A DNA stretch of 64,000 nt from Halopseudomonas phragmitis (GTDB lineage: Bacteria > Pseudomonadota > Gammaproteobacteria > Pseudomonadales > Pseudomonadaceae). Position 1 is the stretch's first letter. Each line of letters opens with the position of its first letter. The notes beneath the pieces were generated by a model. The model saw nothing but the letters and a program-made list of their open reading frames with translations. It was not told the DNA's origin and ran no database searches. The translations under genes and the position numbers were made by a program. Of this stretch, positions 25,289-29,385 are shown piece after piece. The stretch covers positions 3,495,501 through 3,559,500 of the forward strand of contig NZ_CP020100.1 in NCBI RefSeq assembly GCF_002056295.1, written 5' to 3'.

Positions 25289-25324
25289 CGCCCCCTTCCC
25301 AGCCAGCCACAACTCTGGTAAAAA

Positions 25325-25352
25325 GAGCGCCTGCCGAATTCCGGCAGCGCTC
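25325..25352 (-). terminator. Hairpin with U-tract on the minus strand, just before tRNA-Gly
   Basis: An 11-bp stem with one bulged base (GAGCG/CGCTC outside, CTGCCG/CGGCAG inside) and a 5-base loop. On the minus strand it is followed by TTTTT, so it would work as an intrinsic terminator for transcripts running leftward past the tRNA. On the plus strand it lacks a U-tract. It may simply insulate the luciferase-like gene from the tRNA. Confidence 0.45.
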
Positions 25353-25356
25353 CCAA

Positions 25357-25430
25357 GCGGGTGTAGCTCAATGGTAGAGCAGAAGCTTCCCAAGCTTACG
25401 ACGAGGGTTCGATTCCCTTCACCCGCTCCA
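25357..25430 (+). tRNA. tRNA-Gly (anticodon CCC), CCA encoded
   Basis: A 74-base cloverleaf: acceptor stem GCGGGTG/CACCCGC, D arm GCTC/GAGC with AATGGTA loop, anticodon loop TTCCCAA giving CCC at 34-36, T arm with TTCGATT, discriminator T and encoded CCA. It resembles E. coli glyU. The first anticodon-stem pair appears as G27 opposite A43, a mismatch, while the other four pairs are Watson-Crick. It is the only RNA gene seen in the window. Confidence 0.95.
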
Positions 25431-25713
25431 GTAACTCATTGATATTAAAAACTTATCAGCTCAAAAATCGCTAGATTTCGATAAAGTGTCGAAAAGCGGA
25501 TTTATTCCCCATGCCAATCCATTCGGCAAATTTCTGCCAAGGCATCAAAGAAAGTCGGGCATCCGACTAGCTTTTGAAGGTCAAGACCTTTCATATCCAT
25601 CTGCTTTGTTCCACTATGTTCAGCATTAGCAGGCCTTGCTGAAGACCTTGAAGACCTACCCACAACGCGCCCTATGGCTGATCACAGGGAAGGTAGCGCC
25701 CGAAGGAATGGAC

Positions 25714-26451
25714 ATGGATGAGCATCTAAAACGACAAATCGAAAGCTTGAAACCAAGCATTGATGACGCACCAACCAGAGTACGGAAACAAAAGAACAAA
25801 AGCCCCATAGGTATCTCGACCATACTGGCCATCAGTTTGATAGGTGGCATCATTTATATGGGCGACAGGAACGGATGGGCCGACCACCTAAAGCAGCATA
25901 TAGCGCCACCCACGGCAGGCATGAAGCAAGAACATGCACCTGTATCGGTAACAGACCAGAGAATAAACATTGGTGAAGCCTCCGAAGCTGCCAAAGATAT
26001 TTACCTGGAACAAGTGAACAAGATGCTTCACCAGAGTACCGAATGGGGACTATGTGAGGCCTACAAGAGCAGCCAGTCGGAGCTAGGCAAGGCTATCAGG
26101 CAACAAAACTGCAAGCCTAACCCAGTAGCTGAAATTGAATGGATAGATAACACCACAGGAAACAGCTCTGAAAGACAAACGGTATTCACTGATGAGAACT
26201 ATCGACCATCAGGGACAGTAAACACAATCAGAATGCCGAGACCTGAAGCTGCTCAGCAAAGCACACCTCAGCGTACACAGCCATATGTAACGGTAGTAAA
26301 GGAGACGAAGTTTAGCTGTGGACCATTCAGAGAAGGGTCACCAGAGTGCAGGCAGCATAAAGCAAGGATGCAACAGCACTGGCGAAGGGCATGCGATATC
26401 AATCAGAACTCACATGCATGTACACAAGCAAACCGCTATGACCTCAGGTAA
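25714..26451 (+). CDS. Unrecognised single-pass membrane protein in a low-GC patch
   Basis: A 245-residue protein of no family I recognise. A short charged N terminus, one membrane segment (about residues 34-50, around ISTILAISLIGGIIYM), then a polar periplasmic domain with several cysteines clustered toward the C terminus (KFSCGPF, SPECRQH, RRACDIN, SHACTQ), suggesting disulfides. The start at 25714 is preferred because GAAGGA sits six bases upstream. A TTG start at 25636 is also open. Base composition is well below the neighbours, and it lies just after a tRNA, so recent acquisition is likely. Confidence 0.6.
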   Translation: MDEHLKRQIESLKPSIDDAPTRVRKQKNKSPIGISTILAISLIGGIIYMGDRNGWADHLKQHIAPPTAGMKQEHAPVSVTDQRINIGEASEAAKDIYLEQVNKMLHQSTEWGLCEAYKSSQSELGKAIRQQNCKPNPVAEIEWIDNTTGNSSERQTVFTDENYRPSGTVNTIRMPRPEAAQQSTPQRTQPYVTVVKETKFSCGPFREGSPECRQHKARMQQHWRRACDINQNSHACTQANRYDLR

Positions 26452-26479
26452 ATCACATTCAGCATGAGGCTGTCGAAGA

Positions 26480-26509
26480 AGTGTTGAACACACTTGCAGT
26501 CTGACTGCA
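26480..26509. repeat. Two small adjacent inverted repeats
   Basis: AGTGT-N5-ACACT (26480-26494) is followed at once by TGCAGTC-T-GACTGCA (26495-26509), in the gap between the low-GC gene and the secDF leader ORF. They have no U-tract, so are not clear terminators, and could be operator sites or a remnant of the insertion boundary. Confidence 0.35.
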
Positions 26510-26607
26510 TCCGAACACACTCAGTCCGGCTCCTGACCACAGACACACTGTCATTATCCACCCCGATAGCTTAGTATTCACGGGTGTCTCTTGAGTAAAT
26601 CACCCCC

Positions 26608-27000
26608 ATGGGCCAGGCAGTGCACCCCAAAATGACAGCAGTCCCGCAACGGTCGATGACCAGGCTGGCTTTCGCCTGGCTGTTGCTGTGCGCCATGCTA
26701 TTTGGGCTCAATGCCACGGCTCTGGGCGTGCAGGCTGGGGCTGGCAATGGCTTTGTCAGCCAGGCCGAACAACTGTTCTTTGCCTCGCATGCCGACAACA
26801 TCCGGCTGATCAATGACACTCGGTCCACAAGCCCGACAAGTGATGGCTTGCCCGACCTGCTAGAGCAGGCCCTGATTGCCGCCCTGATCCTGACGGCACC
26901 GGCCCATCGAGCCAGCTTCCCTTATGTCACCCAGCACGCCAACCTCCCGGCAGCGGCCCACTACCTAAGACCCTCCCCACGCGCGCCCCCAGCAGTCTGA
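26608..27000 (+). CDS. Putative secretion-monitoring arrest peptide (RAPP type) upstream of secDF
   Basis: An open frame of up to 130 codons. A hydrophobic signal-like segment (RLAFAWLLLCAMLFGLNATALG) starts after a few residues. No enzyme domain is visible in the rest, and the last residues are P-R-A-P-P-A-V-stop. R-A-P-P is the arrest motif of the ApdA/ApdP nascent peptides, which are encoded upstream of Sec/YidC components and stall ribosomes until pulled by the export machinery. SecDF is the next gene, 57 bases away, with its ribosome site in a helix that includes the end of this ORF. Possible ATG starts are 26608, 26632 and 26656, none with a strong ribosome site. Function is inferred; no homologue was searched. 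Confidence 0.68.
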   Translation: MGQAVHPKMTAVPQRSMTRLAFAWLLLCAMLFGLNATALGVQAGAGNGFVSQAEQLFFASHADNIRLINDTRSTSPTSDGLPDLLEQALIAALILTAPAHRASFPYVTQHANLPAAAHYLRPSPRAPPAV

Positions 27001-27055
27001 TCCTCGCAGCTTTACCCCCTTTACGCGAATAAACGACGTCAACGTCGAGGATTAG
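26997..27055 (+). promoter_or_regulatory. RNA helix hiding the secDF Shine-Dalgarno sequence
   Basis: The 5' arm CTGATCCTCG (26997-27006) spans the last bases and stop codon of the leader ORF. It pairs over ten positions, with one G-U wobble, to CGAGGATTAG (27046-27055), which contains the secDF ribosome site GAGGA and ends two bases before the ATG. A ribosome stalled at the RAPP codons (26980-26991) would cover the 5' arm and free the site. A smaller hairpin, CGACGT/ACGTCG (27034-27047), lies in the loop and competes for two bases of the 3' arm. Confidence 0.7.
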
Positions 27056-27057
27056 TC

Positions 27058-29385
27058 ATGAAATCATTGTCTTCACGGGCTGTTATCTACAGTCTGTTGA
27101 TTCTGTTTGGGCTGCTGTGCGCCATGCCCAACATCCTGCCGACACAACTGTCACAGCGGCTACCGGCCTGGTACACCGACAGCACCCTGGCCCTGGGGCT
27201 GGATCTGAGTGGTGGCTCGCATCTGCTGTTGGAAGTCGATACCCAGGAATTGCTGATCAATGCCGAAAAGGCCCAGGGCAACGAACTTAGTGCTGCCCAG
27301 CGCCAGGCGCTGACCAGTGACGCGGTCGAGCGCAGCCTGGAGGTAGTACGGCGCCGGCTGGACGAAAGCGGTCTGGTCGAACCCAGCATCACCCGTCAGG
27401 GCAACGACGGCATTCTGGTACAGATGCCGGGCGTGGCCGACCCCAGCCAGATCCGCGAGCTGCTCGGCACCACCGCCAAAATGACCTTCCACTGGGTGGT
27501 CGATGGCGAGCGCCCCAACGGCCCGGTCATGATTGTATCGGGCGATGCCGAAGGCAGTTCCTACCGGCTTGAACAACGGGTAGCACTGGAAGGCAAACAC
27601 ATCAGCGATGCCCAACTGGCGTTCAACCCTGACAGCGGCCAACCGGTGGTTACCTTCAAGCTCGACAAGGACGGCGCCCGACGCTTCGCCGATCTGACCC
27701 AGCGTAATATCGGCCGGCCGCTGGCCATCGTGTTGGATGAGCAGGTCATTACTGCCCCAGTGATCCGCAGCGTGATCGCCGGTGGCAGTGGCGAAATCAG
27801 TGGCAACTTTACTTCCAGCGAAGCTAGCAACCTGGCATTGCTGCTGCGGGCCGGCGCCTTGCCTGCCCCGCTGAAGGTGATCGAGGAGCGCACTGTTGGC
27901 CCGGACCTGGGCAGTGATGCCATCTCCATGGGCATCAGCACCGGACTACTCGGCGCGGCTTTGGTGATCGGCTTCATGCTGGCGATCTATGGCCGCTGGG
28001 GCCTGATCGCCTGTGCCGGTCTGGCAGTCAATGTCGGGCTGGTTTTCGGCGCTCTGACCCTGCTCGGCGCAACCCTGACGCTGCCAGGCATAGCCGGGAT
28101 TATCCTCAGCATCGGCATGGCGGTGGACGCCAATATTCTGATTAATGAACGCATCCGCGAAGAGGCTCGGCGCGGCAAGTCGGCGATGCTGGCCCTGCGT
28201 GAAGGCTTCGACCGCGCCTACGCCACCATTCTCGACTCCAATGTGACCACTCTGATCGCCGTCAGCCTGCTGTTCATGTTCGGCAGTGGGCCGGTGCGAG
28301 GCTTTGCCGTGACCATCGGCATTGGCCTTTTGACCTCGATGTTCACCGCCATTGCCGTAACCCGGCTGCTGATGGAGTGGCGGGTACGCAAGCACGGTCG
28401 CCGACCGCTGGTGATGTCAGGCATGCGGCTACTGGACTGGTTCAACGGTCGGCCGCTGAATGTGATGCGTGGACGCTTTTTCGGGATTGGCCTGTCACTG
28501 CTGCTGTCTCTGGCTTCGGTTGTGCTGTTCGTCAAACCCGGGCTCAACTACGGGATCGATTTCAGCGGCGGTACTGTGGTTGAGGTCAACGCGCCGGGAA
28601 CAGCGGTAGACCAGCTACGCACTGCCCTGCAGCAGCAAGGGCTGGGCCAGGTAGCAATTCAGGAGTTCGGCGATGGTGGGCACTATCTGGTCCGGCTGCC
28701 ACAAACCAGCGCAGAGCAGGTAGCCAGCGGCGCGCCGGTCGACACCCTGAAAAGCACCGTCCAGAGTCTCAGTGAGCAGGCCAGTTTCCCTCGGGTGGAA
28801 ATGGTCGGCCCCAGGGTTAGCGGAGACTTCAGCCAGGCCAGTATTCTTGCCGTGCTACTCGCCGGCGCCGGGATGCTCGGCTATCTGTGGCTACGCTTCG
28901 AGTATCACTTCGCCCTGGCCGCAACCCTGACCATCGCCCTGGATCTGACCAAAACCATCGGTTTCTTCGCCCTGACCGGGATCGAGTTCAACCTGACGGC
29001 GGTAGCGGCGCTGCTGGCCTTGATCGGCTATTCGATCAACGACAAAGTGGTGGTATTCGACCGGGTGCGGGAGAACCTGCGACAAACACCGGACAAGCCA
29101 TTACTGGAGTTGCTCAACCAGAGCATCACCTCGACCCTGACCCGCACGCTGTTTACTTCGGTGACCACCTTCCTGGCCTTGTTGCCGATGGCCATCGCCG
29201 GTGGCAGCGCGGTGGCCAGTTTTGCCCAGCCAATGCTGTTCGGGATTGTCATCGGCACCAGTTCATCAATCCTGATCGCCGCGCCGATCCTGTATTTCCT
29301 CGGTCAATGGCGCAACCGCCAAGGGCTGAGCCAGTTGCGACCCAGCGCCGAGGAACTGAAGAAACAGCTGGAGGCTATTCCCTGA
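27058..29385 (+). CDS. secDF: Fused protein-export membrane protein SecDF
   Basis: A 775-residue single-chain SecD-SecF. The SecD half has LALGLDLSGGSHLLLEVD after the first helix, the periplasmic P1 domain with PVVTFKLDKDGARRFADLT, and the membrane motif IGMAVDANILINERIREE. The SecF half starts near residue 470 with LNYGIDFSGGTVVEV and ends with ALIGYSINDKVVVFDRVREN. SecDF uses the ion gradient to pull exported proteins out of SecYEG. Fused forms in this group usually coexist with separate secD and secF, so this is probably a second, regulated system. Its ribosome site lies in the helix described just upstream. Confidence 0.94.
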   Translation: MKSLSSRAVIYSLLILFGLLCAMPNILPTQLSQRLPAWYTDSTLALGLDLSGGSHLLLEVDTQELLINAEKAQGNELSAAQRQALTSDAVERSLEVVRRRLDESGLVEPSITRQGNDGILVQMPGVADPSQIRELLGTTAKMTFHWVVDGERPNGPVMIVSGDAEGSSYRLEQRVALEGKHISDAQLAFNPDSGQPVVTFKLDKDGARRFADLTQRNIGRPLAIVLDEQVITAPVIRSVIAGGSGEISGNFTSSEASNLALLLRAGALPAPLKVIEERTVGPDLGSDAISMGISTGLLGAALVIGFMLAIYGRWGLIACAGLAVNVGLVFGALTLLGATLTLPGIAGIILSIGMAVDANILINERIREEARRGKSAMLALREGFDRAYATILDSNVTTLIAVSLLFMFGSGPVRGFAVTIGIGLLTSMFTAIAVTRLLMEWRVRKHGRRPLVMSGMRLLDWFNGRPLNVMRGRFFGIGLSLLLSLASVVLFVKPGLNYGIDFSGGTVVEVNAPGTAVDQLRTALQQQGLGQVAIQEFGDGGHYLVRLPQTSAEQVASGAPVDTLKSTVQSLSEQASFPRVEMVGPRVSGDFSQASILAVLLAGAGMLGYLWLRFEYHFALAATLTIALDLTKTIGFFALTGIEFNLTAVAALLALIGYSINDKVVVFDRVRENLRQTPDKPLLELLNQSITSTLTRTLFTSVTTFLALLPMAIAGGSAVASFAQPMLFGIVIGTSSSILIAAPILYFLGQWRNRQGLSQLRPSAEELKKQLEAIP

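Follow-up and report, generated by a model that had tools for sequence, protein, structure and literature searches.

The stretch of the Halopseudomonas phragmitis genome analysed here (64,000 nucleotides (nt) of contig NZ_CP020100.1, positions 3,495,501 to 3,559,500 of the forward strand; hereafter the window) contains a small open reading frame (ORF) directly upstream of a fused secDF, the second SecDF of the genome (hereafter secDF2), and this leader very probably encodes a Sec-monitoring arrest peptide that governs it. The leader, its C-terminal RAPP motif, their spacing and the gene order are conserved, a covarying helix lies at the front edge expected for a ribosome stalled on the motif, and the regulated gene is a second copy. 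In the mechanism that we propose, an N-terminal signal would deliver the nascent chain to SecYEG. When export is slow, the ribosome would stall on the leader at RAPP, and its front edge would open the first part of the helix that buries the secDF2 Shine-Dalgarno (SD) sequence, allowing secDF2 to be translated. Working export would instead pull on the nascent chain and end the stall fast, termination would come soon after RAPP, and the helix would then refold and keep secDF2 low. The stall, its release by export and the induction of secDF2 are taken by analogy from a published family. In Alteromonas, arrest on a leader ending in RGPP opens an SD-masking stem-loop before secDF2, and a proline-to-alanine change in that leader lowers the activity of a secDF2 reporter about 5.6-fold (PMC10987492). 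As far as sequence can tell, the locus described here agrees with the Alteromonas mechanism.

The leader ends in S-P-R-A-P-P-A-V immediately before its stop codon, and its N-terminal signal was judged by hydropathy alone (Table 1). The initial annotation of this DNA had described a signal-like ORF ending in PRAPPAV, a fused secDF as the next gene and a 10-bp helix over the secDF ribosome site; sequence and hydropathy bear out the first, family NF009583 and Pfam domains the second, and the helix is present as written and covers the SD sequence CGAGGA. A RAPP-like motif (counted as R[AG]PP or [QH]APP) occurs within the last 20 residues in 1 of the 309 window ORFs of at least 60 amino acids (aa), namely the leader. 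Comparison with the leader of locus L010 places 15 of 22 base changes at third codon positions, and the synonymous/nonsynonymous counts are 12/7 for L001/L010 and 10/5 for L011/L012, the pairs for which such counts are usable, the others being spoiled by indels. A scan of the leader protein against NCBIfam and Pfam returned no family match. A single homologue, 94% identical, was found among 5.8 billion proteins, and the genome-contig collection likewise held a single one, in Pseudomonas sp. WN033.

To follow the leader beyond this close relative, relatives were searched for fused secDF genes of at least 60% identity. They are present in 6 of 37 genomes of the genus sample, including that of the window, and in 6 of 398 genomes of the family sample (the same six), with 29 further loci among 390 genomes of the order sample and 2 among 369 genomes of the class sample; the remaining matches were mostly canonical secD and secF read together, and L009 was excluded as a copy of L010. 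Checked as the initial annotation had suggested, 36 of these 37 loci bear, immediately before secDF2, a signal-like ORF that has RAPP or a close variant at its end (29 RAPP, 3 RGPP, 2 HAPP, 1 QAPP and 1 RDPP). RDPP joined the list of motifs after L023, which carries it, had been seen; a strict count based on the motifs in the methods of PMC10987492, where RDPP is unlisted, gives 35 of 37. The 36 leaders stem from eleven family labels, with the replication family f185 (see below) counted, and their sequences hardly align between loci; in 21 of them the stop codon comes two residues past the motif. Among control ORFs at 32 canonical secD-secF loci, 2 of 735 carry a RAPP-like motif in their last 20 residues, and none of six fused secDF genes of lower identity (39-47%, class sample), which by eye follow a yajC-like gene, is preceded by a RAPP-like leader (a seventh such frame had no upstream DNA). 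At one leader-bearing locus, L031 (genome G664), secDF2 is interrupted by one in-frame TAG, the leader and helix region being kept.

Table 1. Features of the leader-secDF2 locus; positions are those of the window.
Feature	Position	Strand	Basis
Leader ORF, 130 aa, putative Sec-monitoring arrest peptide	26608-27000	+	Conserved leader, C-terminal motif
Signal-like hydrophobic core, residues 20-34	26665-26709	+	Mean hydropathy 2.46
Post-signal box GFVSQAEQLFFA, residues 48-59	26749-26784	+	Similar in f1, f20, f37 and f49 leaders
Acidic box S-D-G-L-P-D-L-L-E	26842-26865	+	Position conserved in 41/45 leaders
Second, moderately hydrophobic stretch, residues 84-98	26857-26901	+	Averaged hydropathy profile rises after acidic box
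RAPP arrest codons, residues 125-128; predicted P-site codon 26986-26988	26980-26991	+	Register from PMC10951233
Helix 5' arm, including leader stop codon 26998-27000; predicted front edge of stalled ribosome 27001-27003	26997-27006	+	Pairing comparison; toeprint offset from PMC7897499
Local palindromic hairpin CGACGTCAACGTCG beside SD, rivals end of long helix	27034-27047	+	Fold
Helix 3' arm with secDF2 SD CGAGGA (27046-27051)	27046-27055	+	Pairing
Fused secDF, 775 aa, second SecDF of the genome	27058-29385	+	NCBIfam NF009583 above cutoff; Pfam domains

The helix of the window locus comprises 10 base pairs, one of them G-U, within a region where 57 nt separate the leader stop from the secDF2 start. 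We compared the pairing of the segment after RAPP with its own SD region and with the SD regions of other loci. Native pairing is the stronger, with means of -14.4 versus -9.5 kcal/mol for native and swapped combinations over all 36 loci and of -13.4 versus -8.6 kcal/mol over 22 representatives (grouped by eye), for which 0 of 20,000 permutations match the native value, so that the covariation between helix arms anticipated in the initial annotation is found. With positions numbered from the first base of the P-site codon, a 16-nt segment slid along the mRNA gives its maximal signal at +6 to +21 (z -8.2); the adjoining windows at +12 and 0 give z -4.2 and -2.9, positions further upstream -1.8 to +2.1, and those from +36 to +69, which in short loci run into the SD region, -1.7 to -3.1. 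RAPP stalls with its first proline in the P-site (PMC10951233), and in toeprints a stalled ribosome has its edge at +15 to +17 (PMC7897499), which together put the predicted front edge inside the 5' arm. An mRNA structure covering the SD of the regulated gene is therefore predicted at the stall front edge, as in the logic of SecM and VemP. The initial annotation had located the 5' arm at this edge, a placement that stands, having assumed a stall at the second proline, which has to be moved one codon earlier. The modelled cost of opening the SD, averaged over the 22 loci, is 7.3 kcal/mol with no mRNA covered and 3.8 kcal/mol with cover up to +15; it drops between +6 and +15 of coverage, and the drop is at least 2 kcal/mol in 14 of them. 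At the window locus the drop varies with the length of secDF2 that is folded: the cost goes from 7.2 to 6.0 in this model, from 11.7 to 4.8 when folding ends at the start codon and from 8.4 to 6.0 when 30 nt of secDF2 are included.

Several observations weigh against the proposed mechanism or limit its reach. Folded alone, the window region is ordinary (z -1.19; 23 of 200 shuffles equal it); the helix evidence is comparative. At least 24 of 200 shuffled arms equal the native pairing at 14 of the 36 loci, 2 of 34 foreign SD regions match the own SD in pairing with the window arm, and the SD-opening cost shows no drop in 3 of the 22 modelled loci. One of the 37 secDF2 loci, L039 (genome G424), is devoid of a RAPP-type leader. 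The minimum-energy fold of the window also loses the CG end of the helix to the local hairpin beside the SD. Across the 36 loci, the helix is strong in most lineages, not all. Locus L039 itself adjoins leader carriers on the tree, a position that would fit loss or replacement.

Plain translational coupling, in which any ribosome reaching the leader stop would open the helix, RAPP being incidental and export unsensed, seems to us improbable. It gains some plausibility from the 21 of 36 loci with a stop two residues past the motif, where terminating ribosomes would open the helix too, and from the transient opening that PMC10987492 assumes for an arrest-defective mutant, yet it leaves unexplained why RAPP and the signal are conserved amid such divergence. 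The position of the 5' arm also bears on it. In 17 strongly paired representatives its midpoint lies at +14.5 (standard deviation 1.9, a figure narrowed by confining the search to +3 to +29) from the P-site codon, the scatter relative to the stop codon being 8.5, and loci with longer tails after the motif (L045-L048, L050, L037, L038 and L043) keep the place of the arm relative to RAPP. Coupling anchored on the stop codon is disfavoured by this tracking of the P-site codon rather than the stop. In an unrestricted search, 22 of 36 loci have their best arm beginning between +3 and +13, where about 7% would be expected, and it lies elsewhere in L021, L023, L027, L034, L040, L041, L042 and L044, among others; two of these, L027 and L034, have the longest tails and are neutral on coupling. 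A proline-rich C-terminus meeting a fortuitous helix before secDF by chance would accord with the ordinary single-sequence fold, the one close homologue in 5.8 billion proteins and the absence of a sigma-70 match nearby (26300-27300), but is scarcely credible given leaders at 36 of 37 loci and 0 of 20,000 permutations, and locus conservation, covariation and the rarity of the motif among control ORFs rule out a chance ORF or helix. The reading of the leader as a Sec sensor, already advanced in the initial annotation, is supported.

SecDF2 contains the Pfam SecD, P1 head and GG-motif domains and the SecD/SecF membrane domains. Separate canonical secD and secF genes are present elsewhere in the genome (secD after yajC, as judged by eye), and the fused gene is therefore a second copy, as in VemP/SecDF2. 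Upstream of secA, the ORF ending nearest to the gene lacks RAPP and by eye encodes a peptidase, and a RAPP in another frame was found more than 1 kb away. Among relatives, SecDF2 occurs in a short form of about 755-775 aa, to which the window protein belongs, and a long one of about 826-860 aa, as noted from the window and L011-L014; the two differ by some 70-80 residues close to where the P1 domain begins. Two forks of the secDF2 tree (support 98/96 and 99/98) separate L014 from the other five copies of the genus, and these forks and the patchy presence of the gene suggest that the leader-secDF2 unit has been transferred.

The type of mechanism is already published, and the window leader adds a pseudomonad case. 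The RQH arrest peptides span nine phyla and include 11 groups linked to secDF (Fujiwara et al. 2024, PMC10987492). Like the members of that class, the window leader is a small same-strand upstream ORF directly before a sec gene, has a RAPP-like C-terminal motif and, by hydropathy alone, an N-terminal signal or membrane segment, and its signal-to-motif spacer of 93 residues exceeds the 30 used in its definition. With published systems such as uDF_RQH_Enterobacterales of Alteromonas naphthalenivorans and uA_RQH_Pseudomonadales it shares a signal-bearing upstream ORF before a sec gene, a C-terminal RAPP or RGPP and a stem-loop that hides the secDF2 SD; they differ from it in lineage and sequence, the Pseudomonadales group of the main text preceding secA (PMC10987492). 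The name uDF_RQH_Pseudomonadales was not found in the literature searched, supplements aside, and these leaders may be listed in the supplements of PMC10987492. ApdA and ApdP likewise stall at RAPP before secDF2, but in Actinobacteria and Alphaproteobacteria (PMC7897499, PMC10951233); the close relative of the window leader, in Pseudomonas sp. WN033, places it outside the ApdP class of alphaproteobacterial secDF leaders. VemP of Vibrio also governs a second SecDF, although with an unrelated arrest sequence, other cis elements and separate secD2 and secF2 genes (PMC11470409). SecM of Escherichia coli shares the arrest peptide, the SD-sequestering stem-loop and release by Sec, but has RAGP as its motif and controls secA.

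Most Sec-type leaders vary widely in length (PMC10987492). In 29 leaders of the present set (L085 and L087 omitted), 90.7 residues (standard deviation 4.2) separate the end of the hydrophobic core from the P-site residue, a distance that lets the signal emerge from the ribosome; the core picks of L032, L043 and L050 are doubtful. Between the two lies a cluster of acidic residues. Counting the P-site residue as -1 (a position of -47.1 being about 46 residues away), the cluster, mainly Asp, is centred at -47.6 (standard deviation 3.4) in the first 22 leaders; shuffled sequences give a standard deviation of 18, and 0 of 2,000 were as tight. The interval -54 to -42 was set on these leaders and then used on family f185, where 10 of 147 genomes have a fused secDF2, 9 of them new. 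The nine new leaders comprise seven with RAPP or RGPP at the end, one with TGPP and L088 with QASP; with L085 omitted as near-identical to L084, the acidic box falls within the interval in 8 of 8, against 1.9 expected (0 of 2,000 shuffles). The L088 and L089 leaders, which end in PPAQASPLAIPA and FSTGPPLAIPA, retain the box, and L088 may have a variant arrest motif. These box-bearing f185 leaders may belong to the published Enterobacterales RQH group. Overall, 41 of 45 leaders have the box some 46 residues ahead of the P-site, the exceptions being L026, L037, L038 and L044; in the window leader D79, D83 and E86 stand 48, 44 and 41 residues before the P-site residue. Asp or Glu make up 100 of 377 residues within -54 to -42 and 120 of 1,943 elsewhere. 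When 12 residue classes were compared, only two, Asp plus Glu and Asp by itself, exceeded all 400 shuffles in both density and position, and the positions of Asn/Gln and Lys/Arg were mildly narrow (7 and 14 of 400 shuffles).

E. coli SecM, unlike the window leader, has one acidic residue in this region. Outside the class, 5 of 26 loci have a RAPP-like leader, probably of the ApdP type; in the box interval these leaders have 1, 1, 1, 2 and 3 acidic residues and 2-3 basic ones (3 acidic and 2 basic in the fifth, L113); absent in SecM and in four of these five, the box is not a general feature of Sec arrest peptides. No sequence word could be assigned to it either, since a Gibbs sampler returned another element, and it is therefore claimed as composition and position only. 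The element returned, a GF box after the signal (G-F/Y-V-x-x-x-E/D), lies some 70-80 residues ahead of the P-site and is common to leaders of several families (the window, L011, L013, L014, L022, L024, L026 and L049). A fixed position for the hydrophobic stretch after the acidic box was not significant, 332 of 1000 shuffles being equally tight. A term search of the main texts of PMC10987492 and PMC7897499 found no mention of an acidic box in RAPP leaders, and literature searches that combined arrest peptides and membrane potential, charge or proton-motive force turned up nothing equivalent as judged by title and opening of the abstract; the box is apparently unreported.

We tentatively consider that these leaders might be natural force sensors tuned to voltage through the acidic box. 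During a RAPP stall the box would lie inside SecYEG, where the membrane potential would pull on it; a healthy potential would break the stall, and a weakened one would let it persist and the second SecDF motor be made. In earlier work with engineered charged stretches, by Ismail and colleagues in 2015, the largest early electric force reportedly arose at 47-49 residues from the P-site. The match between the distance of the box and those of such force probes suggests a tuning to membrane potential. At a distance of some 40-50 residues from the peptidyl transferase centre, a nascent chain has reached SecYEG (PMC7886326), and the proton-motive force acting on acidic stretches is strong enough to release SecM arrest, basic and uncharged stretches being also partly released in such probes (PMC6028853). 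Alternatively, the box could strengthen the arrest by contact with the ribosome surface or bind a Sec factor (SecDF P1, PpiD), a credible explanation in which we nonetheless place less than even confidence. For full arrest, MifM depends on a segment close to the tunnel exit or outside it (PMC6037786), the SecM chain outside the ribosome stabilises its arrest (PMC4373844), and extra cis elements of VemP act with SecY, PpiD and possibly SecD (PMC11470409). Such contacts fit less well with a box defined by charge and position and lacking a word, for which an electrostatic role is the better match.

The surroundings of the locus can be described briefly. The promoter scan of 26300-27300 found no sigma-70-like site, and the same interval has 2 terminator-like sites against 0.9 expected. 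An Rfam scan of 25300-27400 gave nothing above the gathering score except one tRNA. A tRNA-Gly (25357-25430) is separated from the upstream region of the leader by about 1,048 nt (25434-26481) containing an ORF at 25636-26451, in place of which Pseudomonas sp. WN033 has 47 nt. This segment is possibly a tRNA-adjacent insertion; a search of the window for a repeated tRNA end found none.

With the window leader, the arrest peptides that measure the bacterial export machinery gain a pseudomonad example backed by comparison across the family, and because its helix is anchored at the front edge, the SD-unmasking model becomes a covariation test applicable to any such leader. Through the acidic box, a specific physical hypothesis can be put to the test, and the box suggests an answer to the question of what physical signal cancels such arrests. 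In Vibrio, SecD1/F1 is driven by Na+ and SecD2/F2 putatively by H+ (PMC11470409). If the voltage-sensing proposal is true, one leader would link the proton-motive force to the production of a motor that this same force is thought to drive.

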